Origin: a virus
DNA: 37,764 nt
Virus record (IMG/VR): IMGVR_UViG_3300018059_000026
Location: 1 to 37,764 of that record
Reading direction: 5' to 3' (one strand)
Shown: positions 2,679 to 35,739 of the stretch, one piece after another
How the letters are laid out: every line of letters begins with the position of its first letter
Numbering within the stretch: the stretch's first letter is position 1
Translations under genes and position numbers: made by a program
Notes under the pieces: generated by a model
What the model was told of the DNA's origin: nothing
Database searches by the model: none
Seen by the model: only the letters and a program-made list of their open reading frames with translations

Positions 2679-2692
2679 CACTGAATCACTGA
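2679..2692. promoter_or_regulatory. operator-like repeat, copy 1
   Basis: CACTGAATCACTGA in the gap between the endolysin and the metallophosphoesterase gene. It is the exact reverse complement of 14 bases at copy 5 and one of seven copies of the dispersed element described in the findings. Confidence 0.6.
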
Positions 2693-2716
2693 CGCAATTT
2701 CCTTAAGGTTTTCGCT

Positions 2717-3847
2717 ATGTCCATGTACCCGGAAGCAAAACGCCCCCCCTGTCCAGGTCGACTTCCTGGGTGTCTCGGCAAGATCGCGGACCGGGGCGCG
2801 AAGCAGTGCGCAAATTGTTACAAGGAAGCGCGTCGGCGAGCGGCTCCCAGTGCTCAGGTCAAGGCCGATCAGGACAAGCAACGGACCGCCCAGGAGATCA
2901 CCGGGATCCGAAAGAAGTACGACGAGGCACTGAACACCATCGGCCGGCAAGAACGGGAACTCCGGGCGCTCGGCGCGATCAGCGACGGGATCGACACCTA
3001 CCAGATCGAGCCGAAGAAGGGGACAGGTACCTCTGAAGCGACGCCGATTCTGGTCGCGAGCGATTGGCACACGGAAGAAACGGTCAAGCTGTCACAGGTC
3101 AATGGCCTGAACGAGTTCACCGCACCGATCGCGAAGGCGCGTATCGAACAGTTTTTCCGGTCTGGGCTCCGGCTGGTCAACCTGCTCGGACAGGACGTCT
3201 CGATCAGTACCGTCGTCCTTGCGCTCCTGGGCGACTTCATTACCTCCGACTTGCATGAGGAAGCGATGGAGACGAACGGGCTCCATCCCATGCACGCGAT
3301 CATCAACGCCCAGAACTTGATCGCGTCGGGCATCGAGTTCCTACTGAAACACTCAAAGTACGAGTTCGTGATCCCCTGCAAAGTCGGCAACCACTCGCGG
3401 ACAACCCGGAAGGTGCGGTTCGGGACGGAAACCGGGCATTCCCTTGAATACCTGATGTACATCCATCTGGCCGCGTACTTCCGCAACGAGCCGAGAGTGA
3501 CCTTCCAGATCAGCGAAGGCTATCACCACTACCTCGACATTTACGGCAAGACGATCCGCTTCCATCACGGCCACGCGATCAACTACCAGGGCGGAATCGG
3601 TGGGATCTTCATCCCTGCATTCAAGGCAATTTCGCAGTGGGACAAGGGCCAGCGCGCGGACCTGGACATCTTCGGCCACTTCCACCAGATGAAAGACGGC
3701 GGAAAGTTCGTCTCGAATGGTTCCTTGATCGGCTACAACGCGTTCGCGTTGTCGATCAAAGCCGACTACGAACCGCCGAGACAGACACTCTTGCTCATTG
3801 ACAAAAAAAGAGGCCGTACCTGTTCCTGGCCGATCCTCTTGAATTAA
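2717..3847 (+). CDS. calcineurin-like metallophosphoesterase with N-terminal Cys cluster
   Basis: 376 residues; the ATG at 2717 follows an AAGG. Metallophosphoesterase motifs are all present in order: DWH (D116, H118), GD (G172-D173), GNH (224-226), HHGH (283-286) and GHFH (320-323). These would build a two-metal phosphoesterase centre. Residues 11-34 carry CPGRLPGC then CANC (C12, C19, C31, C34), a likely zinc finger, followed by a charged helix at about 45-85. The substrate is unknown; phage homologues are usually annotated only as putative metallophosphoesterases. It opens a rightward accessory block and is preceded by an operator-like repeat. Confidence 0.8.
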   Translation: MSMYPEAKRPPCPGRLPGCLGKIADRGAKQCANCYKEARRRAAPSAQVKADQDKQRTAQEITGIRKKYDEALNTIGRQERELRALGAISDGIDTYQIEPKKGTGTSEATPILVASDWHTEETVKLSQVNGLNEFTAPIAKARIEQFFRSGLRLVNLLGQDVSISTVVLALLGDFITSDLHEEAMETNGLHPMHAIINAQNLIASGIEFLLKHSKYEFVIPCKVGNHSRTTRKVRFGTETGHSLEYLMYIHLAAYFRNEPRVTFQISEGYHHYLDIYGKTIRFHHGHAINYQGGIGGIFIPAFKAISQWDKGQRADLDIFGHFHQMKDGGKFVSNGSLIGYNAFALSIKADYEPPRQTLLLIDKKRGRTCSWPILLN

Positions 3848-3860
3848 AGGACACCCCATC

Positions 3861-4517
3861 ATGAAGACGCTCCTGTTCACCCTGTTCGCCTGTTCGTTAT
3901 TTCTGAACACCGCCAACGCGCAGACGTCTTTGCTCGCCGACGTTCAGGCGGAGCGATCCACGTACCCTGCGCACATGGAACGCGGACAAGTTGCCGACAT
4001 GCTGAACGCGGTCGCGTGGAAGCATCGCAACGAAGGTTGGGGGTTGCTTCGGAAAGGTTCTGGGAACTCCTGTCCGCTCAAAGACACCTTTATCTCCTGC
4101 GACATTCTGGTTCACGCCCCGTCTGTCCAGCATTTTGACGTGCTGATCGATTCGGAAGACGCGGCGATTCCCGTGTGGAACAACGTCGGCCCGTGCGTGC
4201 TCGGCCCATCGTCCGGGTGTGCAATGTCGAACTTCCTTTCGCCGTTCGATCCGGGCGGGGTGACGCCGATCCCGGTACCTGTACCTGTTCCCGTTCCTGT
4301 GCCCGGTGTGGATCTCGGTCCGCTACTGCGTCGATTGGAAGTCCTCGAAGAAGACGTCAAGGCCCAACGCGGCGCACTCGATAACTTCTCGCAGACCCAG
4401 GCGAATCTATCGCGCCGGGTACAGACAATCGAGGACGTCCTGATCGCACATCGGATTCCGGTGTCCTGTTCCGCGTCGGTATTCGGGATCGGTGTCTCTT
4501 GCAAACTCGTGTTTTGA
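3861..4517 (+). CDS. secreted protein with Pro-Val linker and coiled coil
   Basis: 218 residues. A signal peptide is clear (hydrophobic LLFTLFACSLFL, likely cleavage after ANA at residue 20). A compact domain follows with conserved-looking VAWKHRNEGWGLL, DILVH and FDVLID segments and four Cys (71, 80, 112, 120). Next comes a PVPVPVPVPV linker at about 137-149, then a coiled coil at about 150-195 and a C-terminal Cys pair. The layout suggests a periplasmic or surface protein that oligomerises through the coiled coil. The family has no function known to me. Confidence 0.7.
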   Translation: MKTLLFTLFACSLFLNTANAQTSLLADVQAERSTYPAHMERGQVADMLNAVAWKHRNEGWGLLRKGSGNSCPLKDTFISCDILVHAPSVQHFDVLIDSEDAAIPVWNNVGPCVLGPSSGCAMSNFLSPFDPGGVTPIPVPVPVPVPVPGVDLGPLLRRLEVLEEDVKAQRGALDNFSQTQANLSRRVQTIEDVLIAHRIPVSCSASVFGIGVSCKLVF

Positions 4518-4528
4518 GGAATCAGACA

Positions 4529-4639
4529 ATGGCAACCGAACCGACACCCCCGGTAAAGAAACCCGGCTTCTGGAGGCGACTCGGAACCGGCGCGATGGAA
4601 CTGATCGCGCAAATCCTGTACGCCAAGTCGCGGTCGTAG
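4529..4639 (+). CDS. 36-aa basic peptide, hypothetical
   Basis: ATG at 4529 preceded by GAGGA at about 9 bases; TAG at 4637-4639. The peptide runs MATEPTPPVKKPGFWRR then a short amphipathic helix ending in AKSRS. It fits exactly in the gap between the secreted protein and the SPFH gene, which supports it as real. Function unknown. Confidence 0.45.
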   Translation: MATEPTPPVKKPGFWRRLGTGAMELIAQILYAKSRS

Positions 4640-4642
4640 CAC

Positions 4643-5191
4643 ATGGGAGCCTTCGAGTGGATCTCGTCGATCATCGAGTGGTTCGGGAAGTTCTTCCCAC
4701 GTTGGATCATTCTCGATACGACCGAAGGCGCGGTCAAATTCGTCCGCGGGTCGAAACCCATCGCGCTCCGGGCAGGGATTCATTGGTTCTGGCCGATCAC
4801 GACCAAAGTCACGCAGTACCCAACCGCGTTTCAGGCGGATCGGCTGCCGACCCAGACTATTACCACGACCGATGACGTCGTGATCGTTGTCGGGTCAATG
4901 ATCTCGTACGCCGTAGACGACATTCTGCCGCTCGTGTCTACGACACATTCGGCCATGACGACGGTCAACAACCTCGCGATGTCTGCCGTTCATCACATCT
5001 GTTGCCGGATGTCCTGGGAGGAACTCAGAGGCGAACAACGCCGGGGTACCTTGGATACGAAGCTCCGAAACGCCGCGCAAAAAAGTTTATCGAAATACGG
5101 GGTCGCGGTTGAAGAACTCGTGCTGGTGGATATGGCGAAAGCACGGGTGCTGAAACTGATGCAAAGCACGAGTACCGAGGAGAACGCATGA
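4643..5191 (+). CDS. SPFH / band-7 domain protein (stomatin-prohibitin-HflK/C type)
   Basis: 182 residues. The N-terminus is a hydrophobic amphipathic hairpin (residues 1-25) that would sit on the membrane. It is followed by the band-7 pattern: GAVKFVRGSKP, LRAGIHWFWP, LPTQTITTTDDVVIVV, ISYAV, the helix after EELRGEQRRG, and the closing YGVAVEELVLVDM. Family members form membrane rings; host HflK/HflC restrain the FtsH protease. The phage version lacks the long C-terminal coiled coil, so it is short for the family. A role in membrane remodelling, FtsH control or exclusion is inference. It overlaps the next gene by ATGA. Confidence 0.75.
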   Translation: MGAFEWISSIIEWFGKFFPRWIILDTTEGAVKFVRGSKPIALRAGIHWFWPITTKVTQYPTAFQADRLPTQTITTTDDVVIVVGSMISYAVDDILPLVSTTHSAMTTVNNLAMSAVHHICCRMSWEELRGEQRRGTLDTKLRNAAQKSLSKYGVAVEELVLVDMAKARVLKLMQSTSTEENA

Positions 5192-6632: not shown

Positions 6633-6639
6633 CTGGGTC

Positions 6640-6891: not shown

Positions 6892-8139
6892 ATGCTCCAT
6901 CTCTACCGTCGTCATCGATCCGCCTGCCCGCATACCTCTGCCACGTACCGCCGTTGTCAGTGTCCGATCTACGTCCGGGGTACCCTGGGCGGCGCGGACG
7001 TCAACCGCATGTCGATGGATCAGACGTCCTGGGACGCGGCCAGCAAGCTCGTCAATGAGTGGACAGTTGCAGGGAGCTTCGGCGCGAGGATGGACGCGGG
7101 TCAGAAAACGGTGCAGGACGCGGTCAGCGCCTTTACAGACGACGCGACGGCGCGGGGACTCACTGCGGCTACCCTGAAGAAATATCGCTTCCTGACGAGG
7201 CGTCTGGTGCCCTGGTGCACGGACAACGGGTACGCGTACTTGCCGGCGTTGACCTTGGACGCCTTGACCAGCTTCCGGGGTACCTGGATCGGCGGGGGAC
7301 TCACGAAAGCGAAGCAACAAGAACGGCTCCGGGCGTTCTTCAGCTGGTGCGTTGCGCGGGAGTGGATCCGGAAGAATCCAGCTGAACATCTGTCGGCCTT
7401 CAACGTCGATCGGGTACCAACGCTCCCCTTCACCGCGGACGAAATGGCCCGGATACTCACCGCCTGTGAGAAGTACCCGGCCCGGAACCGCGTCCGCATG
7501 ACCGCGTTCGTGCTGTTGCTCCGTTGGTCCGGGCTCCGGATCGGCGACGCGGTCACGATCACCACGGACCGCATGACCAACGGAAAGGTGTTCCTGCACA
7601 CACAGAAGACGGGAACGAACGTCTGGGTACCGGTACCGCCGACTGTCACGGACGCACTGGCGAAGGTGACACTTGACGGCGATCGGTACTTCTGGTCCGG
7701 GAAGGGGAAACCAACGTCCGCGTCCTCCGGTTGGCAGAGAGCGTTACGTGTCCTGTTCGCGCTTGCGGACGTTCCGACAGGACATGCTCACCGGTTCCGG
7801 GACACCTTCGCGGTTGAATTGTTGTTGCAGGGAGTCGAACTGGCGGACGTGTCGAAGCTCCTGGGGCACGCATCGATCAAGGTGACGGAGCGCCATTATT
7901 CACCGTGGGTTCATGCTCGTCAATCGCGGCTGGAAGCGGCGGTACAGAAAACCTGGACGCTCACTACGCCGCCTTCCGGGGTTCCTGCACAATCTCTCCC
8001 GACCGCAAGCGGCGAATCACAAACCGCGGAGGGAGAGACGCCGGTACCTCCTGCGTCATCTTCCGGTACACCCGCGTTGCCACGGATTCCGGAATCCGTA
8101 GTACCCGACCCGATCGAATCACTCCCGGTTCCTGCCTGA
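6892..8139 (+). CDS. int: tyrosine site-specific recombinase (integrase)
   Basis: 415 residues. Catalytic residues are visible: R216 in SGLRIGD, K239 in TQKTG, H300 and R303 in HAHRFRDTFA, H326 in LLGHASIKVT and the nucleophile Y336 in ERHYSPWV. A SAM-like core-binding domain spans about 75-165. The N-terminus carries a C..H....C.CP cluster (residues 12-25), a pattern common in some integrase subfamilies. Residues about 355-415 are an unusual Pro/Ser/Thr-rich tail beyond the catalytic domain, encoded where an antisense HTH gene overlaps. It would integrate the phage at the tRNA-fMet-like attP just upstream. Confidence 0.92.
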   Translation: MLHLYRRHRSACPHTSATYRRCQCPIYVRGTLGGADVNRMSMDQTSWDAASKLVNEWTVAGSFGARMDAGQKTVQDAVSAFTDDATARGLTAATLKKYRFLTRRLVPWCTDNGYAYLPALTLDALTSFRGTWIGGGLTKAKQQERLRAFFSWCVAREWIRKNPAEHLSAFNVDRVPTLPFTADEMARILTACEKYPARNRVRMTAFVLLLRWSGLRIGDAVTITTDRMTNGKVFLHTQKTGTNVWVPVPPTVTDALAKVTLDGDRYFWSGKGKPTSASSGWQRALRVLFALADVPTGHAHRFRDTFAVELLLQGVELADVSKLLGHASIKVTERHYSPWVHARQSRLEAAVQKTWTLTTPPSGVPAQSLPTASGESQTAEGETPVPPASSSGTPALPRIPESVVPDPIESLPVPA

Positions 8140-8218: not shown

Positions 8219-8660
8219 CGCTGTCTTCTCCGTACGTCTTCACCTTCTCGCCGGCCTTTGTGATCAGCACGTACGCCTTTTTCGGTTTCTTCCTCGTGGC
8301 GTCCGCGAGCATTTGCAGACTGCCGCCCAACTTCACGAACTCCAACTTGTCGAACTTACTACTTTCCCCTTTGACGATCGTCAGCTTGAACCCGTTGACG
8401 TCGGTCGTCTTGATGTCCCAGGCTTCGAGTTCGGCCTTGATCTTTGCTTCCTCGATCTTCTGCTGAGCGGCCAATAGGTCCGCTTCAAACTTCAGTTCCG
8501 CCCAGGTGGACAGGATCGCTTCGACACGTTGCTGGACTTCCGGACTAAGGGTCTGAATCATTTCCTGCGTTTGGGTCAATTCCTGTTTCAACGGACACTC
8601 CTTCGGGGTCTGGCAGAACCCGTTATAGTAAAGGACGTAACGGCAATGCTCACAGGTCAC
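8211..8660 (-). CDS. hypothetical Cys-cluster / coiled-coil protein, 149 aa
   Basis: The N-terminus has C3, C6, C16 and C22 (CEHC, then CQTPKEC), a possible zinc site. A long helix follows at about 25-80 (ELTQTQEMIQ to AKIKAELEAW) and then a Lys-rich beta domain ending in an acidic tail. It is coupled to the polymerase gene by ATGA and lies at the distal end of the replication operon. No family recognised. Confidence 0.65.
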   Translation of the reverse strand: MTCEHCRYVLYYNGFCQTPKECPLKQELTQTQEMIQTLSPEVQQRVEAILSTWAELKFEADLLAAQQKIEEAKIKAELEAWDIKTTDVNGFKLTIVKGESSKFDKLEFVKLGGSLQMLADATRKKPKKAYVLITKAGEKVKTYGEDSDD

Positions 8661-11410
8661 GCGGCGACGGCTTCCCGGATCGCGTGCATGTTCCCCCAGT
8701 CGGTCCCGTAGTCACCCGACGTCTCGATCGGGACGGAGAGATCACTGGCCGGTACCTGTGTCATCGCGTACACCATCTCCACGTCGAGATCCTTCAGGAT
8801 TCGTTCCTCGCACTCCATCAGGAGATCGTCGTGAATCTGAATCAACGGCTCGACTTTATCCCCGCGTTTCCACCGGGGAAGGAGGATGTTTCGGTACACG
8901 TACTCTTCGGCTCGCTTCATGATCGACTGCGCGCCCGCCTGAATCGGTGTCGCGAACGCGAACCGCTCCGCTTCCGATCGTACCGCTTCGTCATAGCTGC
9001 GAATCCCGCCGATGTAGCGACGTCGACCACGAAGGTCTGTCACGAACCCGTACCGCCGCGCTTCCGCGATCTTCCCCTGTTGGTACTCGGGTACCCGCTT
9101 GTACAACTGCATGGTTTCCGTGAGCCAGCGTTGCGCATCGTCTTCGTTGACATCGACCCCGTTCTTCCGCAGTTCCAGACACAAACCGATATTCGTCATG
9201 CCCATCGGGATCCCGAAATTTACCGCTTTGGCGGGGAGCCGGTGTTTGCTTTTGTCCTGATCTTTCGGGGCGACGCCGAAGATCCTTTGGGCCAGGGTCG
9301 CGTGCAGATCCACGCCCGATCGGAATGCGTGGAGGAGGATGGGATCTTGCGAAAGGTGAGCGAGCACCCGCAACTCAATCTGACTAAGATCCCACGAGGC
9401 AAGAACCGCACCGTCGCCACTGATAAACCCTTCTCGAAACCGGGTCGCAAATTTCCCATGCTTGGGCAGCGCGAGCAGGTTCGGATCACTAGCTGCAAGC
9501 CGACCAGTAACGACGCGAGTAAGCCGGAACGTGGCATGGATGCGTCCGTCGAAGGGGTAGCGGTGGACAAAGTCCGGGATCTGGTCGACGAACGTATGTT
9601 TGAGTTTGTAGACTTCACGGTACTCCCTTAGATCCGCGATGTGTCGGCGGATCGCTCCATCCAGTCGGCTATCCTTCTCAAGAGCTTCGAGCACCTTGTC
9701 ATTGGTCGAGGGATCGCCGCCCGGTGTGCGTTTGAGGGAATCGATTCCGTACCGCTCGAACAAGAGTTCCCCGACGTGGTAGGTGGAATTGGGGTTGAAG
9801 GCCCAGGCGTCGTCGTCGGAGTACCCCGCGTCGCCAGCCAGTAATTTCTCAGCAATTCGAGTTCGTATCTCGACAAGTTCGCTGCCCAAGTCCTCAGAAA
9901 GTCGTGCGAAGTGGGCGAGATCGGGACGGATTCCGATCTGCTGCATCCGGTCAATGAGCGGAATGGTTGCGAGATCGGCGCGGTAGACGGGGTAAAGATC
10001 CGCAGCTTCAAGTCGTTCAACCAGTTGGGGCTTGAGTCGTAACGTGCCGTCAGCGTCTCTTCCGGCATACGAAATAGCTCGAACCAGTGGGACATGATCC
10101 AGAGTAGCCGCCCAGATTGCGCCGAATTTAGGCCCAGCTTCGACGTGTCGATCGAGTACCTGATCTCCCCAGAGCTTGCGGGAATCTTTCGAGCGAAGGC
10201 ACCGCTCGACCGCCTTAAACAAATCTGATTTTGGGAGTTTCGGGTGAACGCGTAGCTTACGACCAGGGACGGTTCGCCCTTTCTTGTCGATGTACGGGGT
10301 TGTAGTGAGCCTGACAAATTCGAGTCGGCAGTGTTCTTCGTGTTCGGCATTCTCAGTATCCCAGGAAGCGAGTAACCAGTCTTGCGCGAGCCGGAAATTG
10401 GCATCGCCCATCACGTCGTCGTAGTGCTCCATCTTCATGTTGCAATGACGGGCACAGAGCGGCTTCAGTCCTTGCGGTTCCAGTTGCAGGACGTAGGCCA
10501 TTTGCATCGTGTCGTCAAACGTCAGGTACCGGGTGTCGATCCCGATCGCCCGGAAGATGTTCAGTTCGTGGAGCGCGGAATGAAAGACGAAGGTGTACAG
10601 AGGTACCCCGCCGTCCTCAACCGCCAGGAGATCGAGGTTGACCCATTCGACGAATCGATCGATCAGATGCTTGTACTTGTTCCGGATGATGAACGCATGA
10701 CCGGCGCGGGTCGTGAGTTGGACAGACCAGACGTTGTGCGCCCAACCTTCCGTATCGCACGAGAACTCGATTGAGGTACCCTCGCCGAGCATGATCTGGT
10801 CAACCGTGTCGACATCAAGTACCTCCTGGTAGACCGGCTCCGGGATCGGGTCGTCGAATAGAATCCGGGGTGCGATGCTTCCGTCGAGTACCCCTTCCAG
10901 CTGCGTGAAGTCGTACGTCACCGCTGCGGCGAGTTCAGGGGACCGGAATCCCGCGGCCGGGTTGTAGATCGGGAAAATGATCACCCGTTCGGGATTCGCG
11001 AATAGCGAACGCCGGGGCGAATCGATCGGCAGATGCCAGGGGATCCCGTGGCAGCTTTCCATGTCGATGTCGCCGAGAAAATATTGCGTAATGTGCCGCC
11101 CCAGCGCGACGATGTATTTCGGCCGCACCGCCCGGAGTTCCGTGATCAGTGCAGGTTCGTCACGATCAAAATCAGCTTGTCCATATTCCGCGTCCGGTCC
11201 GCACCAGTCCTTGATCCAGACGGTGAGGTAACAATCTCCACGAGCCGGAAGCCGCACACCATCGAGGTAACGATCGATCTCGTTGGTGCGCCGGCCTTTG
11301 GCACTAAACGGACGGCCAGTACTCGCGTCATCTTTGCTCGCCCATTCTCCGCAGACGAAAAAATCACAAGGTACCGGCCCTTCGCCGTTGATGCGCCGGC
11401 CGACACTCAC
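8657..11410 (-). CDS. family A DNA polymerase with N-terminal UDG-like domain (SPO1 type)
   Basis: 917 residues, GTG start overlapping the previous stop (GTGA). Residues about 1-175 resemble family 4 uracil-DNA glycosylase (GEW..KDD...GRPF, PKYIVALGRHITQYFLG, FPIYNPAAGFRSP), as in phage SPO1 polymerase. The usual FeS cysteines are not evident, and the HP motif reads NP (N150), so glycosylase activity is doubtful. A DEDD 3'-5' exonuclease follows: DTE at 219-221 and YAGRDAD near 448-454, while the exo II region reads HSALHELNIF without the usual Asp. Polymerase motifs are A (SWDLSQIELR, D674), B (R724, K728, F732) and C (IHDD, D861). The O-helix Tyr position (E. coli Pol I Y766) is Met736. It is the presumed phage replicase. 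Confidence 0.9.
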   Translation of the reverse strand: MSVGRRINGEGPVPCDFFVCGEWASKDDASTGRPFSAKGRRTNEIDRYLDGVRLPARGDCYLTVWIKDWCGPDAEYGQADFDRDEPALITELRAVRPKYIVALGRHITQYFLGDIDMESCHGIPWHLPIDSPRRSLFANPERVIIFPIYNPAAGFRSPELAAAVTYDFTQLEGVLDGSIAPRILFDDPIPEPVYQEVLDVDTVDQIMLGEGTSIEFSCDTEGWAHNVWSVQLTTRAGHAFIIRNKYKHLIDRFVEWVNLDLLAVEDGGVPLYTFVFHSALHELNIFRAIGIDTRYLTFDDTMQMAYVLQLEPQGLKPLCARHCNMKMEHYDDVMGDANFRLAQDWLLASWDTENAEHEEHCRLEFVRLTTTPYIDKKGRTVPGRKLRVHPKLPKSDLFKAVERCLRSKDSRKLWGDQVLDRHVEAGPKFGAIWAATLDHVPLVRAISYAGRDADGTLRLKPQLVERLEAADLYPVYRADLATIPLIDRMQQIGIRPDLAHFARLSEDLGSELVEIRTRIAEKLLAGDAGYSDDDAWAFNPNSTYHVGELLFERYGIDSLKRTPGGDPSTNDKVLEALEKDSRLDGAIRRHIADLREYREVYKLKHTFVDQIPDFVHRYPFDGRIHATFRLTRVVTGRLAASDPNLLALPKHGKFATRFREGFISGDGAVLASWDLSQIELRVLAHLSQDPILLHAFRSGVDLHATLAQRIFGVAPKDQDKSKHRLPAKAVNFGIPMGMTNIGLCLELRKNGVDVNEDDAQRWLTETMQLYKRVPEYQQGKIAEARRYGFVTDLRGRRRYIGGIRSYDEAVRSEAERFAFATPIQAGAQSIMKRAEEYVYRNILLPRWKRGDKVEPLIQIHDDLLMECEERILKDLDVEMVYAMTQVPASDLSVPIETSGDYGTDWGNMHAIREAVAA

Positions 11411-12751: not shown

Positions 12752-13462
12752 TCACTGAAGTACCGGCTCGAAGATGACCACGCACGACGGGAATGGTGCG
12801 CTATCGAGTAAGTCCTTGTCTGGGACATCCTGCAAGATGCGCTCCACGGCCATCCGGGGGAGTCCGGTCACTGACACCATTGACTTGTACCATTCAGCCT
12901 TGACGGTGTCAGTGAACGCAATCCCGCCTTCAGGAAGGGGTACCTTCGCCGCTTCGTACTGATCCTTGATCCACTGCCGAAGCTCCACTGTCACCGTTAG
13001 CTCGAACTCCAACCGGCCAGGAAGGAAGCGACAACGGGTACCTGGACGCCAGTGACCGTCTCTGTGGATCGAGCGAATATCGTGGATCTCGTCTTCGATG
13101 GTTGGCGGGTATTCGTCCTTGTCCCAGATGTACCCCATCCACCATTTCGTATCGCTGCGCACCGGGAGCAACAGCACCACCGTCGCACCCTTGTCCGCTT
13201 CCTCGCGCGCTTTCTTGATGAACTTGCCGGCGACGGAGTACGGCGGGTTCAGCCAAATCGTGAATCCGGTACCTCCCCAGTCTTCCGTCAACGCGTCTTC
13301 CGCGAGCGTTGAACCCGGACCCATCCACAGATCGCACTTGGCGTTCTCTTTACTCGCTGCCGCGTCGAGATCGAAATGAAATTCCGCGTTCAGCGCGTCG
13401 AAGGTACCCTGGGGCGTCCCGCGTTCATCACCCGCGCTCGCAAAAAATACTGGGGCGTTCAT
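12752..13462 (-). CDS. phage DNA N6-adenine methyltransferase (Dam family)
   Basis: 236 residues. It shows DERGTPQGTFDALNAEFHFDL then DAAA, the N-terminal signature of the phage Dam/N6-adenine methyltransferase family, and the catalytic motif IWLNPPYS (NPPY at 72-75). ATVVLLLPVRSDTKWW and RCRFLPGRLEF complete the pattern. It would transfer a methyl group from SAM to adenine N6. No partner restriction enzyme is visible, so self-protection or regulation is more likely than a restriction system. ATGA overlap with the upstream gene. Confidence 0.88.
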   Translation of the reverse strand: MNAPVFFASAGDERGTPQGTFDALNAEFHFDLDAAASKENAKCDLWMGPGSTLAEDALTEDWGGTGFTIWLNPPYSVAGKFIKKAREEADKGATVVLLLPVRSDTKWWMGYIWDKDEYPPTIEDEIHDIRSIHRDGHWRPGTRCRFLPGRLEFELTVTVELRQWIKDQYEAAKVPLPEGGIAFTDTVKAEWYKSMVSVTGLPRMAVERILQDVPDKDLLDSAPFPSCVVIFEPVLQ

Positions 13463-18253: not shown

Positions 18254-19129
18254 CTACGACGTTGTGAGCGAAACGACTTGCGGCTTCGCGGCCGGGTCAT
18301 ACGCGATCAACCCGAGTCCCGCGAGTTCCGTGAGGAACCCTTCGTCCGCACCCCGACGCGCGATGTCCTGACGATTCGCCTCCTTGACGGCCGCTCTGGA
18401 GAGCAACAGCGTCAGGTTGGATCGCTGGACTGGACCCTTCGCCGCTTTGAGCACGGTTTCGAGGTAGGCTGAAGTCACCCCGTCGAGATCGCTCGTTGAC
18501 GTGGTATTGCCGTTCGTGGCCGGCGCAGTTGCGGTTGTCGTTGGTGCTGATGCTGTCTTCGTGGCCGGCGCATCCTTGACCTTCTCTCCCGGCATCGCGA
18601 GCAACTTCACGCAGACGAGCGTGGACGGCGGGAACTTGGACTTCTTCTGGCCGGGGCGCGTCCGTGCGTCTTCGCCGAAGTCCCGTGCTTTGTCGGCAAC
18701 CCGCTTGAAGTGGCCGTAGAGTCCGACCAGCTTTTCCATGTCGCCGGCTTGTGTGATCGCCTTCGACACGCCGGACGTTTCCAGAACGGCGACGAACGTA
18801 CCCCACTTGGAATCTTTCCGGATCGCCGCGTCGTCCTTGCCTTCGATGAGCAGGAGTCCGTAGCCGTCGTCGCCGATGGTGAAGTTGTCACCCGCCTGTG
18901 CGCCGAGCGAGTAGGACTGACTAACCGTCCGTTCTGCTTCCGGTCCGTCACCGTCCAACAGGAATGTGACGTTCGAGAAGATCGGATTGCCCTCCGTCGT
19001 GTAGCTGTCGGACGGCGGTTCCTTCGTGAACTGAATGTTCTTGATGCGGGCGTCCACGTTGTCGAAGAGGTTGGACCCCTCCTTCATGTCCTCCGACGCC
19101 ATTGAGACATACTTCGGTTTGGTACTCAC
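18254..19129 (-). CDS. possible single-stranded DNA-binding / recombination partner protein, 291 aa
   Basis: GTG at 19129 follows AAGGAG by about 6 bases, fixing the start. The N-terminal part (ARIKNIQFTKEPPSDSY, NPIFSNVTFLLDGDG, RTVSQSYSLGAQAG, WGTFVAVLETSG) reads as a beta-barrel domain. A Thr/Ala linker at about 190-220 joins it to a helical C-terminal domain like a winged helix (LETVLKAAKGPVQRSNLTLL). An SSB-like role is a weak inference from this layout and from the operon. Operator-like copy 2 lies just upstream. Confidence 0.5.
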   Translation of the reverse strand: MSTKPKYVSMASEDMKEGSNLFDNVDARIKNIQFTKEPPSDSYTTEGNPIFSNVTFLLDGDGPEAERTVSQSYSLGAQAGDNFTIGDDGYGLLLIEGKDDAAIRKDSKWGTFVAVLETSGVSKAITQAGDMEKLVGLYGHFKRVADKARDFGEDARTRPGQKKSKFPPSTLVCVKLLAMPGEKVKDAPATKTASAPTTTATAPATNGNTTSTSDLDGVTSAYLETVLKAAKGPVQRSNLTLLLSRAAVKEANRQDIARRGADEGFLTELAGLGLIAYDPAAKPQVVSLTTS

Positions 19130-19164
19130 GGTGACTCCTTCGGTGATGGTTGACGGGTCAGGTT

Positions 19165-19182
19165 GATTCAGTGAATCACTAA
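19165..19182. promoter_or_regulatory. operator-like repeat, copy 2
   Basis: GATTCAGTGAATCACTAA contains the perfect palindrome AGTGAATCACT. It lies in the gap upstream of the 291-aa gene and touches the stop codon of the 77-aa gene. Confidence 0.6.
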
Positions 19183-19412
19183 GCACTAACCGTGCCAATA
19201 GACGTGGACAGGACTAACCGGATGCGTTCTAGCTCGATAACGGCGTCCACAACGGTGGAACTGACGTCCGTCCCGTCATGCGTCACTAAAGCATGGAGCG
19301 GGAGCCGGGACAGGGACCGTTCGATGTCCAGGAGTCGTCGGGCGAGGACATGCACCCGGATCAGGGCCATCGGCACATCGGCAGAGCTAATACGAGAGTC
19401 GGACACAGACAC
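19179..19412 (-). CDS. hypothetical helical protein, 77 aa
   Basis: GTG at 19412 with GAGG upstream. The product is mostly helical (ALIRVHVLARRLLDIERSLS, VVDAVIELERIRLVLS). It sits between two operator-like repeats. Coding is plausible but rests on ORF quality only. Confidence 0.45.
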   Translation of the reverse strand: MSVSDSRISSADVPMALIRVHVLARRLLDIERSLSRLPLHALVTHDGTDVSSTVVDAVIELERIRLVLSTSIGTVSA

Positions 19413-19427: not shown

Positions 19428-19440
19428 GTGAATGATTCAC
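19428..19440. promoter_or_regulatory. operator-like repeat, copy 3
   Basis: GTGAATGATTCAC is a perfect 13-bp palindrome within the dispersed element. It lies between the helicase gene and the 77-aa gene on the leftward strand, where an internal promoter could sit. Confidence 0.6.
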
Positions 19441-19461
19441 TGATCCGTTACACGATCGGAC

Positions 19462-19496
19462 GAACTTACGCGATCCGCGTCAGAACTTACGCAATC
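19462..19496. repeat. pair of 14-bp direct repeats, 21-bp period
   Basis: GAACTTACGCGATC (19462-19475) and GAACTTACGCAATC (19483-19496) differ by one base and are 21 bp apart, two helical turns. They overlap the helicase stop codon and lie beside operator copy 3, so a second DNA-binding protein may use them. Confidence 0.5.
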
Positions 19497-21133
19497 AATT
19501 CGAGCGGTGCCGGGATGTGTTCGACGTAGAGGATCGCGTCCTTGAACCAGCGCGGGGCGTGTTTCCCGTACCGCTTCAGGAACCAGTCGGCGAAATGGTC
19601 ATCGACGATGAAGGTTTCCGCCCAGTCGTCAGGCCCGCGCACCGGCCGGCCGCACGCTTGAACCAACTTCTGCATCCCCAGGTACCCGCTGTAATCCTTG
19701 TCAAGCTCGTGACGGATCGACATGATCGGGCCGCTCATATCCGGCTGGGGTACCTTCGCGATGATCTGGAACCGGCATTGGTCATCAGGAAAATCGTACC
19801 CGGTGACGACGGACGGGGACACCAGTACCCATCCTTCCCCTGCGTGCGCTTTGAACCACTGAATCTGTTCCCGTGTGTTGCCGGCATCGTGGATAATGAA
19901 CCGGTCCCGGTACTCGGACAGGGCCATCAGATCCTTCATGCGGGCGTAGCTGACGGTGTGAATGATCCCGTTCCACTTCGCTTCGACCCGCGGGCCGACG
20001 ATGCGATCGATCCGCTGCAACCAGAGGGATTTTGTGCTCTCGTGCATGTGACGATCGACCCGGACACTGGGCCATGTGTTGATCGAAATGACCGGGCGCT
20101 GGCTGACCGGGAACCGGGACGGGCATTCCCAGAACATCGCGTCTTCCTTGGCAACGCCCAGGAGTGCCAACGTTTTCGGCGTCATGGTCGCCGACATCAG
20201 GAGGACGTGAGGTACCCCGCGGAACAGGTGACTTTCCGCGTAGGCACTGACCCGCATTGGGGCGAATCGTGCCTGAACTGGGTTGAGATCGAGAATCCAA
20301 TCATGGACCGCGATCCCAGATAGCCGATCGAGCAATCCCTTGATTCGTTTCAGTCTCTTCGTGTCCTTCACCCCTTCCGCGGTATCCGGTGGATGAAGTG
20401 CCCTGACTTCCAGCTTTGACGCTAATGGTCCTTTCTGTTGCGTCGCCCAGTCCTTCCACACTTGCAGGTTCGTGTCCTTCAGCAGTTTCGACCCGATGTA
20501 TTTCGCGTCCTCGCTGGTCACTTCAATCGTAAGGAACGCTTCGAGTTCTTTGTCAGCGTCGTGTGCTTCGTCCAGAATGAGGAGATCGAAGACACCCAAC
20601 CCTTCGGCGAAGGCTTCACTGGCGAAATACATCGCGTAGTTGGTCGAGACCAGACTAGCCCGCCGGGCATCCCACACGGATCCGTAGTACGCACAATCCG
20701 GCCGGATCCCTGCCTTTTCCCGAATCGGCGCGAAGTCGCATCGGACTCCCGAATGACACGGACCTTCATCGCACCCGACGACGTACCGGGCGCGGCGATA
20801 ACGATCAAGGTGTCCCCCAGGCTCGATCGCGTGGCACGGATAATTTCTCTGACCGCGTAAGTCAGTGAGGCCAAGTGATCGAAAGTCTGCGGCCGACTGA
20901 TCTTGGAGTCCTTTGGTACTCGTAAGGTAAAGTGCACGTCGAACCTCCGGATGAAGGAGCGCAACTGTGATTCCGATCAAGGTTTTCCCGGACCCTGTCG
21001 GAGCCGGCAGCGCGGAGAATCGTTTACGATTGTTGATGACGCGGTCGATCGCAATGATCTGATCGTCGTAGAAGCGGGTAAATTTTTCAGGGAAGCCGAG
21101 TTCGATCGGTGTCGGGAGCGCGTTGACTTTCAC
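19487..21133 (-). CDS. XPD/DinG-like superfamily 2 helicase
   Basis: 548 residues, GTG start overlapping the previous TGA. Motif I is APTGSGKT (K50), motif II LLILDEAHD (188-191), motif III LMSATMT, and motif VI QACGRPVRGPDDW. Between I and II lie C100, C121, C126, C132 and C147, a spacing compatible with the FeS cluster of XPD/DinG helicases. It is predicted to unwind DNA with ATP, 5'-3' if family-like, as the replication or repair helicase. No separate replicative DnaB-type helicase is seen in the window. Confidence 0.88.
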   Translation of the reverse strand: MKVNALPTPIELGFPEKFTRFYDDQIIAIDRVINNRKRFSALPAPTGSGKTLIGITVALLHPEVRRALYLTSTKGLQDQSAADFRSLGLTDLRGQRNYPCHAIEPGGHLDRYRRARYVVGCDEGPCHSGVRCDFAPIREKAGIRPDCAYYGSVWDARRASLVSTNYAMYFASEAFAEGLGVFDLLILDEAHDADKELEAFLTIEVTSEDAKYIGSKLLKDTNLQVWKDWATQQKGPLASKLEVRALHPPDTAEGVKDTKRLKRIKGLLDRLSGIAVHDWILDLNPVQARFAPMRVSAYAESHLFRGVPHVLLMSATMTPKTLALLGVAKEDAMFWECPSRFPVSQRPVISINTWPSVRVDRHMHESTKSLWLQRIDRIVGPRVEAKWNGIIHTVSYARMKDLMALSEYRDRFIIHDAGNTREQIQWFKAHAGEGWVLVSPSVVTGYDFPDDQCRFQIIAKVPQPDMSGPIMSIRHELDKDYSGYLGMQKLVQACGRPVRGPDDWAETFIVDDHFADWFLKRYGKHAPRWFKDAILYVEHIPAPLELIA

Positions 21134-23630: not shown

Positions 23631-23660
23631 TTGACCTAGCTCCACAAGTTCGGTTACACT
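23631..23660 (+). promoter_or_regulatory. sigma70-like promoter for the winged-helix regulator
   Basis: TTGACC (23631-23636), an 18-base spacer and TACACT (23655-23660) form a good -35/-10 pair 57 bases upstream of the ATG at 23717. It points rightward, away from the leftward operon. Confidence 0.55.
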
Positions 23661-23716: not shown

Positions 23717-24181
23717 ATGAAACACATGCTGTGGTCGGGAGGCTCGCTGGACGCGGAAACAGCGTTGAATCTGATTGAAGCCGTACTCACAATGTACCGG
23801 GAGGAGCGACAAGACACGGCACAGGACGGAATCCCAGCGAGCGAGGATGCCTCCAGGCGCGCGATCACCGCTCCGAAGGATCATCGGCCTGTGGTGACGA
23901 CTATCCCTGTCTCGCCTGAACCTCGCGCACGGAAACTCCCAGCGCGGACCACGTATTCCCTCGTCGTCAAGGATGGTCGGGCGTTGAATTTGAACCGACC
24001 GACACCCGCGACCTTGAAGATCGTCGAGTACCTGCACGGGAAACGCGATGTCACGATGGACCGGCTTGTTGAAGGTACCGGGCTGCAACCCAGCACCATC
24101 AGCAACATTCTGGTCGATCTCCGCAAGCAAGGGGTTCTGCATTCTGGTTCTTTGCGACTGCCGGCTGAGACGCGACCTTAG
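23717..24181 (+). CDS. winged-helix transcriptional regulator (MarR/ArsR-like HTH), 154 aa
   Basis: ATG at 23717 follows AAGGAG by about 10 bases. The N-terminal 85 residues are helical then linker-like. The C-terminal TPATLKIVEYLHGKRDVTM then DRLVEGTGLQPSTISNILVD and LRKQGVLHSG is a clear winged helix-turn-helix. It is the only rightward gene in this part and is divergent from the early operon, the usual place for a phage regulator. It is a candidate reader of the seven dispersed operator-like repeats, but nothing in the sequence proves that link. Confidence 0.75.
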   Translation: MKHMLWSGGSLDAETALNLIEAVLTMYREERQDTAQDGIPASEDASRRAITAPKDHRPVVTTIPVSPEPRARKLPARTTYSLVVKDGRALNLNRPTPATLKIVEYLHGKRDVTMDRLVEGTGLQPSTISNILVDLRKQGVLHSGSLRLPAETRP

Positions 24182-24429
24182 AACCGGACGTCCGGACCGT
24201 TGGTCGCGGCCGCTGATCCATCTGCCGTCAGGGGGATCATTTTTCCGCGTCCCCCGCGGCTGATTCGTCCGCCTTTTCGACCTGCCGTTTCAGCTTCCTT
24301 CCCCGCCTTCCAGCGGTGCGCGGTGCCGGCCGCATGTGCCGCTCGTCCGCCCTTAGCCGCGATCTCGGAGCGGCGCTTTGGCGTCAGGGACGCAAACCCT
24401 CGTCGTTCCGGCGTTGGTGATTCAGTCAT
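24178..24429 (-). CDS. KGG-repeat (Con-10-like) small basic protein
   Basis: 83 residues, GGGAG ribosome site. GFASLTPKRRSEIAAKGGRA then AGTAHRWKAGKEAETAGRKGG gives two copies of the KGG motif of stress-induced bacterial KGG/Con-10-type proteins. Very basic and probably disordered. Convergent with the regulator gene, overlapping it by 4 bases. Its role in a phage is unknown. Confidence 0.7.
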   Translation of the reverse strand: MTESPTPERRGFASLTPKRRSEIAAKGGRAAHAAGTAHRWKAGKEAETAGRKGGRISRGGRGKMIPLTADGSAAATNGPDVRF

Positions 24430-24488
24430 CAGGTCGTCTCCCTTTGAGTCAGACAGCCATCCATCGCTAACAAGACCTGCGCGCGCCC

Positions 24489-24532
24489 GTCTAACCGATT
24501 TATTGGGTGTACCCGCGCGTCTAACCGATTTA
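24489..24532. repeat. 14-bp direct repeats, exact 30-bp period
   Basis: GTCTAACCGATTTA occurs at 24489-24502 and 24519-24532, each preceded by a CG-rich CGCG stretch. Identical copies on the same face of the helix suit cooperative protein binding. Confidence 0.6.
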
Positions 24533-24602
24533 CGTGAGTACGTCGTCTTGACGTTGATCCTCGCAATGTGCGCCGGCTGACCCGTCAGTGCAAACGTCGT
24601 GC

Positions 24603-24617
24603 CAATGATTCACTGAT
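24603..24617. promoter_or_regulatory. operator-like repeat, copy 4
   Basis: CAATGATTCACTGAT in the divergent regulatory region; shares the ATGATTCACTGA core. Confidence 0.6.
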
Positions 24618-24779
24618 GATCCCAGATTGAGGATGTCCGGGTAGTTGGTTCGGGAGGCGTGCAGGTAGGATCATGGTCCGAAATAGAACATGCGGAAAGT
24701 GTACCAGAACGGAACATGCGAAATTACGGGTGTTTTTGCTACTCATTGTCAGGATGTCCGGCTAGGACGTGAATACTTG

Positions 24780-24794
24780 TCAGTGATTCAGTGA
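24780..24794. promoter_or_regulatory. operator-like repeat, copy 5
   Basis: TCAGTGATTCAGTGA, the reverse complement of copy 1 over 14 bases. It lies about 110 bases upstream of the first rightward gene of the next block. Confidence 0.6.
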
Positions 24795-24902
24795 ACAAGT
24801 CAGACAGGCCGATCTAATTCCCCAGGAAATACGGGGACTTACTTTTGGCGTATTACTTGCTCTACCAGAGGTACGGGAATTCTCCCGACTGAAAGGACAC
24901 TG

Positions 24903-27425: not shown

Positions 27426-27691
27426 TCAGTACCCGGTTAATCCTCCCACCTTCTAAGACGTACTTGATCAATACCCGTTGATCAGTACGTCCCTTCCTTT
27501 ACCCGCTCAGCTAGTCTAATACCCGTTCAAGTAGCCGCACAGTCGAACAAGTCCCCTAGAACAGGCTCAGTGACGCTCAGTGACACACCTGGGACGGCCC
27601 ACGCGTGCCATTCCCGCACACAGTGAACGTTACACTGTCACACTTACACACCTAGCACAGCATCACTGATCAGTACCCAAACAAGGCACAG

Positions 27692-27710
27692 TACGTACAC
27701 AGTGTACGTA
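27692..27710. repeat. perfect 19-bp palindrome
   Basis: TACGTACAC, a central A, then GTGTACGTA. The arms are exact complements, so this is a dimeric protein-binding site or cruciform candidate. Confidence 0.6.
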
Positions 27711-27949
27711 TAACTGTAATGAATAGAGATAGATAGGTGGACTGTACTGGGTTCGGTCCGAACCAACGACGGGTAGGGTAGGCACCCCGCGCCAGGATCA
27801 TGGGCCAGGGGCAGGCTGCGGTCGCTTCACTAAATTTCCCCTCAAACTACCTCAGCCGTGAGCGATCAGGTACCAGAAGGCCGCGGTCACTGCACGAAAT
27901 TTTTCTGTATCGTTAGCTCAGCGGTGAAACTGTAAGGTTTAGGGGTTGG

Positions 27950-28002
27950 CGATAGGCTGGACCCTATCGTTGATCAGTACCGATAGTGCCTTGAACCTAT
28001 CG
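27950..28002. repeat. two adjacent CGATAGG hairpins
   Basis: CGATAGG (27950-27956) pairs with CCTATCG (27963-27969) over a 6-base loop. A second CGATAG (27981-27986) pairs with CTATCG (27997-28002). No T-run follows, so they are not ordinary terminators. Confidence 0.55.
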
Positions 28003-28268
28003 TCTGAGCACTTTGACTCATGTTAGTACAGAATTTCACCATACAGATTACCTTACCGTCCTTGCACAATCTGTTTGCTTTTACTGACGGCGTTCTAAAG
28101 GACTTACGGGTTTTACCATACAGATAAAGGCCGGGTCGGCGGTTAATCCGTACACATTGCTCAATAAGATAAGAGAGGGAAAATCAGTATGGTTGATCAA
28201 GTATAGGCCCGGATTCATTGGCGAGATTGATGGGTACGGATTGTTTGGGAATCAGTACCGGGCCGAAA

Positions 28269-28583
28269 CTATAAGGTTTTGGGTAGTCCCGGCGTCGGCG
28301 ACCATTTCTCGATCAGGCAGTTCGAGCACAGGAAGCCTGCGACAGCGATCGGGTACCCCTGACCGCACGTCCGGCACGCCTTGAGCCCGACCCGCCGCAG
28401 GTTCCGCGCGCGTTCCTTCGGGCCGACAACAGGTATCGATCGCCCGCTGGCCGGTCCCAGGTACCTGGAATACCCGTAGTTCCATTTGATACCCCGATTC
28501 GCCAGCTGCAACCGGACGTCCCGCGGCTGGAACCCTTGGTCAAGTAGCTGTTTCACGATATCGGACAGGTTGATCGTGTGCAT
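28269..28583 (-). CDS. leftward zinc-ribbon protein, about 104 aa
   Basis: Start at ATG 28583 (MHTINLSDIVKQLLDQGF); a longer in-frame TTG at 28625 would sit inside operator copy 6. After a helical, possibly HTH-like N-terminal part (VRLQLANRGIKWNYGYSR) comes a CRTC...CSNC zinc ribbon near residues 82-100. It is the only leftward gene on this side of the genome and is divergent from the terminase genes across operator copy 6, so a regulatory role is plausible. Confidence 0.65.
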   Translation of the reverse strand: MHTINLSDIVKQLLDQGFQPRDVRLQLANRGIKWNYGYSRYLGPASGRSIPVVGPKERARNLRRVGLKACRTCGQGYPIAVAGFLCSNCLIEKWSPTPGLPKTL

Positions 28584-28616
28584 GAGGTAGCGATTTCGCT
28601 TGCAAATACCGTACCA

Positions 28617-28641
28617 CTCAGTCAATGATTCACTGACTGAG
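28617..28641. promoter_or_regulatory. operator-like repeat, copy 6, with extended dyad
   Basis: The core CAATGATTCACTGA (28623-28636) is flanked by CTCAGTC and GACTGAG, a 7-bp inverted repeat. It lies between the leftward zinc-ribbon gene and the start of the packaging genes and abuts their GAGGAGG ribosome site. Confidence 0.65.
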
Positions 28642-28655: not shown

Positions 28656-29273
28656 GTGCCTGTCGCTGAGAACCTGTCGCCGACCGCGCCATCCTCCCGC
28701 GGATCTGCAGACGTGTCTCCTTCGCCTGCTACTCCGGCGATCACGGTCCTCGCGCCCACGGGTACCGGTCCCTCCTCAGTCCCCACGATCCGGGCTCGAC
28801 ACCTGAAGCCGCCGAAAGACTCCAGGGTCTACAAGGTCGCGATGGCGTACTTGGCGTTGAAGGCTCAAGGACTGAAGCTGCAAGCGATCAGCGACACAAT
28901 CAACGTCCCGAAAGACACGATTCAGACCTACATGAAGCGCGCGCACGCGAAGGGATGGCTGAATCCGACGAAGCTCGACGTTGAAGACCAGATCGAACTC
29001 ACGATTCCCGAACGCGTCGTCCGGAACGTCAACGAGTTCCTCGACTCCCGCGACAAGGACGTGACGATCGAAGCCGCGAAGGGTGTCGGGATCTTCAAGA
29101 ATCACGCAGCGGTCAAGGTCGACGGACAGGTGGGTGTCGGTTTCGCGTTGCGGGTGCAGGTCGATCTTCCACAAGGGATCGCCGCGCTGTCACCGATCCA
29201 GATTCGTCCTGGCAGTGTCGGCGGGACTCCCGCAATCGAAGCCGAGATCGTCGACAACGACGGAGGTACCTAA
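28656..29273 (+). CDS. terminase small subunit candidate (HTH protein)
   Basis: 205 residues, GTG at 28656 after a strong GAGGAGG. A Pro/Ser-rich N-terminus (1-45) is followed by an HTH (AMAYLALKAQGLKLQAISD then TINVPKDTIQTYMKRA), an ERVVRNVNEFLDSRD helix and a beta-rich C-terminus. DNA-binding N-terminal domain plus oligomerisation region, located at the head of the packaging genes, fits a small terminase that recognises pac or cos. The large subunit is about 2 kb downstream. TAATG overlap with the next gene. Confidence 0.65.
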   Translation: MPVAENLSPTAPSSRGSADVSPSPATPAITVLAPTGTGPSSVPTIRARHLKPPKDSRVYKVAMAYLALKAQGLKLQAISDTINVPKDTIQTYMKRAHAKGWLNPTKLDVEDQIELTIPERVVRNVNEFLDSRDKDVTIEAAKGVGIFKNHAAVKVDGQVGVGFALRVQVDLPQGIAALSPIQIRPGSVGGTPAIEAEIVDNDGGT

Positions 29274-33329: not shown

Positions 33330-33344
33330 TTAGAGGGTACATAC

Positions 33345-35696
33345 ATGTTTCCGTTGAAACCTCCTCCGATCAGTACCACTCCTGGAACTCCGGTTCCGGG
33401 CGGCACAGGGCCGACACTCCTGCAAAACGCACCGACGTATCAAGATCCGCAGCTGCTCGACATGTTCACGCGCTGGAAGCGGGAGAGCTTCGATCAGCGT
33501 TGGGTCTACGAACGTCAGTGGATGCGGAACGTGTTTTACATCCTCAATCGTCAGTGGATCTACTTCGACAGCAAGCGCGGTCAGTGGCAGGACAAACGAC
33601 TGGCCCGCTGGATCCCCCGCCCAGTCACGAACATTCTCAAGGACGGCGTCCAAACCGTCCGCTCGAACTTTGCCGCGATCAACTACGGGGCGACGGCTCG
33701 ACCTGTTGGTGAAGACAACAAGAACGTCGTCACAGCCGGCGTGTCGGATGACTACTTGCCGATCCTCTACGGCGAACACCAGATGGATTCGGTCTACAAC
33801 GAAGGCGATTTCTGGTTGCTCGTCACGGGGAATATGTGGCTGCATACCGCAGTCAACCACGATCGCAAAAACGGGATGCTGACGATTCGTCACGAGACGT
33901 GCGTCAAGTGTCAGCAAACGTACTCCGAAGTCGAGATCAAGGATGCGGGTCAGAAGTGTCCGTCGTGTGGCGCGAACGCATTCATGCCGGCGATGAATCC
34001 CGATGGATCGCCGATGGTTGAACGCCGTCCGTTGCCGAAGGGGATGACGATGGCGTTGTCGCCGTTCGAGATTGCGTTCCCGCTCGTGTACGAACGCTAC
34101 GATCTGGCTCCGTACACGATCCGGATGCGGTGGAGAGACAAAAGCTATTACGAACAGGATGCCGAACTCTCCCAGTACGTGAATCGAATCCCCTGGTCGA
34201 AGACACCCGCGGAACGGACGATGCAGATTTTCAAGTCGCTGCCGTTCCAAAACGATCTCGGTGTGTCCGCGCCGTTCTTCGGCTCGGGCGGGTCGAATAC
34301 CGAAAGTGACGGCGTCGTTGAGTACGACGTGTGGATCAAACCATGCGACGAATTCCCGGATGGTCAGGTCATCCGGTTCGCCGGCGATCAAAACCCGATC
34401 GTCATTCATTCCGAAAAAGAATCGTTGCCGGGACCGTTGCCGTACCACTCGGGTGACGGGAATCCGCTGTTCACGTTTCATCATGCTCGATACGAACACG
34501 TCGGCGGGCGTCCGCTCGGCTCCGCGATGATCGATCCCGCGGTCGGGAAACAGGATCAACTCAATCAACTCGATTCTCACATGCTGATGATTATCGGCCG
34601 TATGGCGAACCCGGTCTGGCTGGAGCCGAAAGGCGCGGAGGTTGAGAAGTTCACGGGTGAACCCGGATTAGTCGTGAAGTGGAATCCGCTGGTTGCGGGT
34701 GGCAACGCGAAACCGGAACGCATCCCCGGCGAAGGGATCAATTCCTCGGTGTTTCAGTACCGGCAGATCATCAAGGACGAGGCTCAGGATCTCATGGGCA
34801 CGTACGACATCTTGAAAGGCCAGAAACCGGCTGGCGTCGAAGCGTACGCGGCGTTGAATCTCCTCCTCGAACGTGGTCAAGCGAAACACGCGTCCGCGTT
34901 CAAGGAACGTGCGGCTGCTCATCGCGGTTGGGCGGGCGATGCGTTGTCGATTGAACAGGAGTTCGGCGAAGAGACACGAATCCGTGCGCGCATGATGCCG
35001 AACAAAGGTTGGGCGTTCGACACGTTCAAGAAAGCTGATCTGAAAGGCTCCATTGAGATCCTGATTGAAGACGGGACGTCGACGCCGAAAACAAATCTCG
35101 GCGAGCGCGCGAACATCGATCACTTGAACACACTGGGCCTGATCGATCCGACCGACGAAGATCAGAAGCGGAAAATTTTCGAGAAGTTCGGTGAATCCGA
35201 ATTACTGCCAGAGATCGACGCGCAAGTACAGGAAGCCTGGATGAACATGGACAAGTTCGAGAAGTTCATGAACGACCCGGCCGCGATTCAGGAAGCGGCG
35301 ACACTCGGGAAACCTCCGCTCATGTACAAACGCTGGTACAACCCGGCGATTCATCGCAAGGAACTGATCAAGTGGGCGCTCAGTGACCGCGGACGTCAGG
35401 TGTTCGCCAAGTCCCCGGCTGCGGAAGGGCTAGTCGACGCGTACCTGTTGTCAATCGACCTTGCCCTAGCTCAAGTGCAGATGGGCATCATCGACGCGGA
35501 CGGGATCATGGTCCCGACAGCACCGCAAGGTCAACCCGGACAAGGGAATACAGGATCCGCTCCAGGAAAAGCAGGCGGGAAGCCGGGTGCTCCACCTGAA
35601 GCACAGGGCGGTGCTGGTAGAGGTTCGGCGATGCGGAATTCGAACGCCAACGCGGGCGGGACAGCTGCCGCGAATCCGCAACAACCACAACAGTAA
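33345..35696 (+). CDS. portal protein with internal zinc ribbon
   Basis: 783 residues. Typical P22-like portal elements: N-terminal YERQWMRNVFYILNRQW, RWIPRPVTNILKDGVQTV, GNMWLHTAVN, FHHARYEHVGGRPLGSAMID with PAVGKQDQLNQLDS, and the long stem/crown helices. Residues 186-208 carry CVKC...CPSC, a zinc ribbon inside the clip/wing region, present in some phage portals. The last 60 residues are Gly/Pro/Gln-rich. It forms the dodecameric ring at one capsid vertex. Confidence 0.88.
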   Translation: MFPLKPPPISTTPGTPVPGGTGPTLLQNAPTYQDPQLLDMFTRWKRESFDQRWVYERQWMRNVFYILNRQWIYFDSKRGQWQDKRLARWIPRPVTNILKDGVQTVRSNFAAINYGATARPVGEDNKNVVTAGVSDDYLPILYGEHQMDSVYNEGDFWLLVTGNMWLHTAVNHDRKNGMLTIRHETCVKCQQTYSEVEIKDAGQKCPSCGANAFMPAMNPDGSPMVERRPLPKGMTMALSPFEIAFPLVYERYDLAPYTIRMRWRDKSYYEQDAELSQYVNRIPWSKTPAERTMQIFKSLPFQNDLGVSAPFFGSGGSNTESDGVVEYDVWIKPCDEFPDGQVIRFAGDQNPIVIHSEKESLPGPLPYHSGDGNPLFTFHHARYEHVGGRPLGSAMIDPAVGKQDQLNQLDSHMLMIIGRMANPVWLEPKGAEVEKFTGEPGLVVKWNPLVAGGNAKPERIPGEGINSSVFQYRQIIKDEAQDLMGTYDILKGQKPAGVEAYAALNLLLERGQAKHASAFKERAAAHRGWAGDALSIEQEFGEETRIRARMMPNKGWAFDTFKKADLKGSIEILIEDGTSTPKTNLGERANIDHLNTLGLIDPTDEDQKRKIFEKFGESELLPEIDAQVQEAWMNMDKFEKFMNDPAAIQEAATLGKPPLMYKRWYNPAIHRKELIKWALSDRGRQVFAKSPAAEGLVDAYLLSIDLALAQVQMGIIDADGIMVPTAPQGQPGQGNTGSAPGKAGGKPGAPPEAQGGAGRGSAMRNSNANAGGTAAANPQQPQQ

Positions 35697-35722
35697 GTAG
35701 ATTTTCGGGGTGTGTAGTGAAT

Positions 35723-35739
35723 CAGTGAATGATTCACTG
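35723..35739. promoter_or_regulatory. operator-like repeat, copy 7, perfect 17-bp palindrome
   Basis: CAGTGAATGATTCACTG is its own reverse complement around a central G. A further half AGTGAATCA starts just upstream (35716). It directly abuts the TTGACA box at 35740. Confidence 0.7.

Follow-up and report, generated by a model that had tools for sequence, protein, structure and literature searches.

The operators of phage lambda, bound by CI and Cro, are short dyads that overlap promoters. Other phages spread the binding sites of one repressor along the genome. The stoperators of mycobacteriophage L5 and its cluster A relatives are asymmetric sites of 13 bp, bound by a monomer and oriented with transcription; there are 20-30 of them per genome, mostly not at promoters (PMC6550527, PMC9283540). 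In phage P1, 22 operators of the C1 repressor, 17 bp long and asymmetric, are dispersed on the genome (PMC8546580).

The repeats described here lie in a virus record of IMG/VR, IMGVR_UViG_3300018059_000026, whose 37,764 bases were analysed as one stretch that we call the window. A sister record, G001, is 99.98% identical to the window over 22.5 kb and extends 12.4 kb beyond its end; by estimate, ~1 kb of the genome lies outside both. Another IMG/VR record, G002 (52 kb), is syntenic with the window, at ~65-85% DNA identity in the aligned stretches, and its ends fall inside a gene, as expected of circular permutation. The records G003, G004 and G005 are remoter relatives. No relatives at the DNA level were found among GenBank phages, and the protein matches of the terminase and the portal are distant, at less than 30% identity.

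The + strand of the window carries a tyrosine integrase gene (6892..8139; PF00589, E=2e-19), which is present in G002 and absent from G003. It supports a temperate lifestyle, lysogeny itself being presumed. A leftward block of replication genes includes those of a DNA polymerase I-like protein (8657-11410) and of a DinG-like helicase (19487-21133). To the right, the genes from 28656 to the window end appear, from their order and sequence, to encode the small terminase, the large terminase, the portal, the scaffold and the start of the capsid protein; functions that lack a family match are our own reading of the sequences. In G003, the late genes are retained, as is a large part of the leftward replication block. 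By the same kind of reading, the protein encoded at 12752-13462 resembles phage DNA adenine methyltransferases. At 27426-28268 there is an 843-bp gap in which no gene is convincing; with its several repeats of the TGATCAGTACC type, it is a candidate replication origin or attachment region; no tRNA or Rfam RNA elements were found. The composition of the window has a peculiarity of its own: GTACC/GGTAC occurs 264 times against 43 expected under a first-order Markov model, and the palindrome GGTACC 64 times against 5.2 (57 against 8.3 in G002, and only 8 copies in G003). These words occur in all three codon phases, and the enrichment thus looks like one at the level of DNA.

An earlier note on this DNA had listed seven operator-like repeats, placed them all between genes or at the edge of a gap, and proposed a candidate stoperator system. 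The seven places are real, each within 0-8 bp of the coordinates first given, and their alignment defines a unit of 15 bp, the dyad TCAGTGA-W-TCACTGA, which we call motif 1. The core named in the note, ATGATTCACTGA, is found exactly at 19432, 24605 and 28625 and nowhere else, the remaining places being variants. What does not vary is the central heptamer TGAWTCA, invariant in 14 of 14 aligned sites of the window, G001 and G002; at most window sites, 5-7 of the 7 dyad pairs are matched.

The word TGAWTCASTGA has 10 exact matches in the window, against a mean of 0.15 and a maximum of 2 in 100 order-3 Markov simulations. Intergenic DNA makes up 8.3% of the window when genes are taken from a list drawn up by hand, and it holds all seven places (binomial P = 2.7e-8). 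The 12.4-kb extension in G001 adds one further exact site, again intergenic, and zero exact coding matches, so that the refuting condition named in the note, chance frequency in the coding DNA of the full genome, does not count against the proposal. GANTC methylation by CcrM was considered as the origin of the TGAWTCA core and rejected: GANTC is not avoided, with 225 occurrences seen and 205 expected.

Every site is upstream of a gene start, at distances of 24-180 bp: measured between site centre and start codon, sites A, B, C and F are at 24-43 bp, while at D, E and G the distance is 111-180 bp. Most sites stand beside promoter-like sequence, and several overlap or abut boxes that resemble -35 or -10 elements. 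Operator A (TCACTGAATCACTGA, 2678..2692) is 24 bp before the ATG of an exonuclease-like gene, 2717-3847, and its ortholog in G002 is identical at 13 of 15 positions. Operator B (TGATTCAGTGAATCACTAA, 19164..19182) is upstream of the leftward gene 18254-19132, ~43 bp from its likely GTG, in a gap that holds TGAATCAGTGA in G002. The centre of operator C (TGAATGATTCACTGA, 19429..19443) is 24 bp from the GTG of the leftward gene 19179-19412; the site belongs to a 26-bp block fully identical in G002, and the palindrome reported for this copy, GTGAATGATTCAC, is present at 19428-19440.

Operators D (CCAATGATTCACTGA, 24602..24616) and E (TCAGTGATTCAGTGA, 24780..24794) share the divergent gap 24430-24902, E being upstream of the rightward gene 24903, and neither has a counterpart in G002. 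The small protein encoded next to this gap, at 24178-24429, has a KGG (Con-10-like stress) motif above the Pfam cut-off and is conserved in G003 too. Operator F, CTCAG-TCAATGATTCACTGA-CTGAG at 28617..28641, occupies the gap that separates the leftward gene 28269-28583 from 28656-29273, the putative gene of the small terminase, and the extra flanking arms CTCAG...CTGAG are there as described. Its core dyad, 28622-28636, is degenerate in G002 (10/15); by eye, the operator overlaps a CAATGA that is 17 bp past a TTGCAA.

In operator G (35714..35740), two copies overlap; a TTGACA box comes directly after them, followed by the putative scaffold gene, 35838-36803. The first copy is identical to that of G002 at 15 of 15 positions, and the 17-bp odd palindrome pointed out earlier, 35723-35739, does adjoin the TTGACA at 35740. 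By eye, a CAATAT follows 18 bp further on; because a sigma70 consensus scan around the operator did not list this TTGACA-18-CAATAT pair, the promoter is a reading and not a tool match. Operator H, a perfect palindrome, is upstream of a late tail-region gene in G001 (reverse-complement 33433-33447).

The relatives allow the sites to be compared with their surroundings. Of six sites compared, five are conserved in G002, where motif 1 is found in the gaps that correspond to those of A, B, C, G and H. An ungapped comparison of the window or G001 with G002 at A, C, G and H gives 57 identical bases out of 60 in the sites, against 56 out of 200 (~28%) in the flanks, taken at 50 bases each: selection on the sites has left a clear footprint. 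In G003, we found neither motif 1, nor a PF00589 integrase, nor an ortholog of the winged-helix protein discussed below. This co-absence, seen in the single integrase-less relative with a long sequence, counts as one event and is no proof of a link between the three.

How do these sites compare with the known systems? The likeness to L5 is that of a presumably temperate phage with dispersed, putative repressor sites in intergenic gaps, and such a spread, genome-wide and within gaps between genes, is what one would also see with true stoperators, at which a protein stops elongating RNA polymerase. However, the seven window places and the one in the G001 extension amount to ~8 sites in ~50 kb, instead of 20-30 (PMC6550527, PMC9283540); the consensus is a dyad, perfect at site H, rather than asymmetric and oriented; and the sites are at the starts of transcription units, most of them next to presumed promoters, rather than mostly away from promoters. 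On these three counts the stoperator label is unsupported, and we judge an arrest of elongation at these sites very unlikely. The organisation is closer to that of P1, in which one repressor also acts on operators scattered genome-wide, but the sites are here 15-bp dyads, fewer in number and unrelated in sequence to the 17-bp asymmetric C1 operator ATTGCTCTAATAAATTT, and the candidate repressor is of another type. As short dyads overlapping promoters, they also resemble the operators of lambda CI and Cro; these cluster at PL and PR, whereas the present ones occur singly or in pairs along most of the genome. We thus regard the system as one that works like a dispersed-operator immunity system, and that is a member of neither the L5 nor the P1 family.

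The other part of the earlier proposal, a single DNA-binding protein acting at dispersed sites, is well supported by the frequency of the motif, its dyad symmetry, its intergenic placement and its phylogenetic footprint. One motif recurs at many phage gene starts, always between genes, and is kept between related phages. Our main reading, to which we give a probability of about 0.7, is that the repeats are the dispersed operators of one dimeric phage regulator, most likely the lysogeny repressor. We infer repression: in a lysogen, a dimeric repressor would sit on the dyads at many lytic transcription starts and block RNA polymerase at the promoters. The putative targets are the exonuclease, an early leftward gene, the divergent region at 24.4-24.9 kb, the small terminase, the scaffold and capsid, and the late tail-region gene of G001; the genes of the repressor and of the integrase, being operator-free, would remain expressible. 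Against this reading, the leftward helicase-containing operon that starts near 23.6 kb is without a clear operator, and conservation in G002 does not extend to sites D, E and F.

The regulator might also be supplied by the host. Some phages use the host LexA, and motif 1 could be the box of a host regulator, for instance an SOS or a global repressor, put to use by the phage. The host phylum is probably Acidobacteriota, a lead that comes from the N-terminus of the phage integrase, residues 1-196 of which match a gene of one Acidobacteria MAG at 59% identity. The matching gene, on contig CADEEX010000246.1 (L022), is apparently truncated, with no evident phage genes nearby. A TerL search of bacterial genomes yielded no relative, and no prophage copy was found in the genome collection; the window does have its integrase gene. 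Against a host box, the core word is sparse in 40 Acidobacteria genomes, at 0-19 per genome, with three matches in the 4.9 Mb of the genome that holds the integrase relative (G006), and most of the seven loci inspected were in coding DNA or in stretches of TGAATCA repeats, none in an evident regulatory context. Since the matches are few, and those inspected mostly coding or TGAATCA-rich, there is no evident host regulon, and we judge an exploited host box to be very unlikely.

If the operators belong to a phage repressor, which protein reads them? The gene at 23717..24181, on the + strand, encodes a protein with a C-terminal winged helix, whose MarR/IclR/ArsR-type family matches are all sub-threshold, under the curated cut-offs. 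Its AlphaFold model has a mean pLDDT of 60, moderately confident in the winged-helix region and poor outside the HTH, and a fold search of the PDB with this poor model gave nothing significant. The protein has an ortholog in G002, with the highest similarity in the winged-helix region, and none in G003; a search for remoter homologs returned only G001, G002 and, over 22 residues, a partial match in L008, a 20-kb sequence in which motif 1 was not found. Upstream of the gene, a sigma70-like promoter, TTGACC-18-TACACT (23631..23660, + strand), is free of motif 1, and TTGACCTA is likewise found upstream of the G002 ortholog; promoter-like sites in a scan around the gene are no more numerous than in shuffles. 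No operator was found in the integrase gap. Kept in G002 together with the operators, missing with them and the integrase from G003, and provided with an operator-free promoter of its own, the winged-helix product is the best candidate and a reasonable lead, with an even chance, in our estimate, of being the repressor. The product of 28269-28583, the other reader that had been suggested, does not match any DNA-binding family convincingly, and its weak similarity to a protein of G003, which is without motif 1, is lost at stricter tblastn settings; it is the less likely reader of the two.

A second element, TGGYACG-NNNN-TTGC, recurs around the operators. This motif 2 is close to the consensus of sigma54 promoters, TGGCACGRNNNTTGCW, to which the window has 5 matches with at most one mismatch, against 0.13 expected, and all five are at or within ~40 bp of site B, D, F or G. 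They are TGGCACGGTTAGTGCT at site B (19182..19197); TGGCACGACGTTTGCA, the exact consensus, at site D (24589..24604); TGGTACGGTATTTGCA at site F (28601..28616); and two at site G, namely TGGCACGAGACTTGCC (35750..35765), which falls between the two presumed promoter boxes, -35 and -10, and another 28 bp from it (35778..35793). All are on the - strand, whereas the terminase gene is on the other, and so point leftward even at the late rightward genes. Site A has a copy with two mismatches on the + strand (2653..2668), with a similar element in the gaps of G002 and G003, and site H a copy with one mismatch; the promoter of the winged-helix gene is without motif 2. The association between the two motifs is partly a product of the search, because motif 2 was noticed near motif 1. 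The published sigma54 consensus, TGGCAC-N5-7-TTGCT (PMC12316311), is independent of that search, and the census of the whole window confirms motif 2. Motif 2 also persists in G003, G004, G005 and remoter loci (including L019 and L020) that are without motif 1, and there, too, each match with no more than one mismatch runs against the direction of the terminase gene.

Motif 2 shows the -24/-12 consensus of sigma54 (RpoN) promoters with its fixed spacing: it fits TGGCACG-rNNN-TTGCW and resembles sites mapped in Salmonella (PMC3844500). The sigma54 DNA-binding domain is found in 19 of 20 Acidobacteria genomes. At sites A and B, motif 2 points to a gene at ~50 bp, as a promoter would; the difference appears at the late genes, where the element of sites G and H faces away from the gene; it belongs there to a presumed sigma70 promoter, within the spacer or next to it. 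At site F, a leftward ATG is only ~18 nt away. Motif 2 may thus represent sigma54 promoters, sigma54 roadblocks, or the operator of another regulator, its likeness to the consensus being fortuitous, and we do not choose among the three. A dual control, in which the host sigma54 polymerase would use the elements as promoters at A and B and act as a roadblock to the sigma70 promoters of the late genes at F, G and H, with the repressor overlaid, seems doubtful to us. If true, it would mean that the lytic programme of the phage is wired to host sigma54, which would be unusual. The literature searched contained no relevant earlier report of sigma54 promoters in phages.

The position of the dyads relative to these elements also bears on the sense of the regulation, for they could be the sites of a phage activator, or of a Cro-like lytic regulator, that switches lytic promoters. 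The sites precede early and late genes alike, some of the -10 boxes are poor, and at H and G the dyads cover the presumed -35 region or precede it, as the sites of class II activators do. Repression is the more typical explanation where the dyads overlap the presumed -10 or start region, as at D and F, or lie downstream of the sigma54-like element, as at A and B; moreover, the dyads do not keep a constant position with respect to the presumed promoter, a variation poorly tolerated by activators, and G003 has the same late genes without motif 1. We consider a regulator of this kind unlikely, and retain the reading of the dyads as operators of a repressor.

Taken as such, the system is a new example of an already known strategy, in which one viral switch protein acts on many operators. 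It yields a specific operator sequence and a candidate repressor for a presumably temperate lineage. Its probable hosts are Acidobacteriota, and the viruses of this phylum have received little study. The comparison of the records suggests that related phages can have or lack, as a block, an operator set associated with lysogeny, and motif 2, kept in relatives that are without the operators, raises a separate question, that of how these phages time the expression of their genes.
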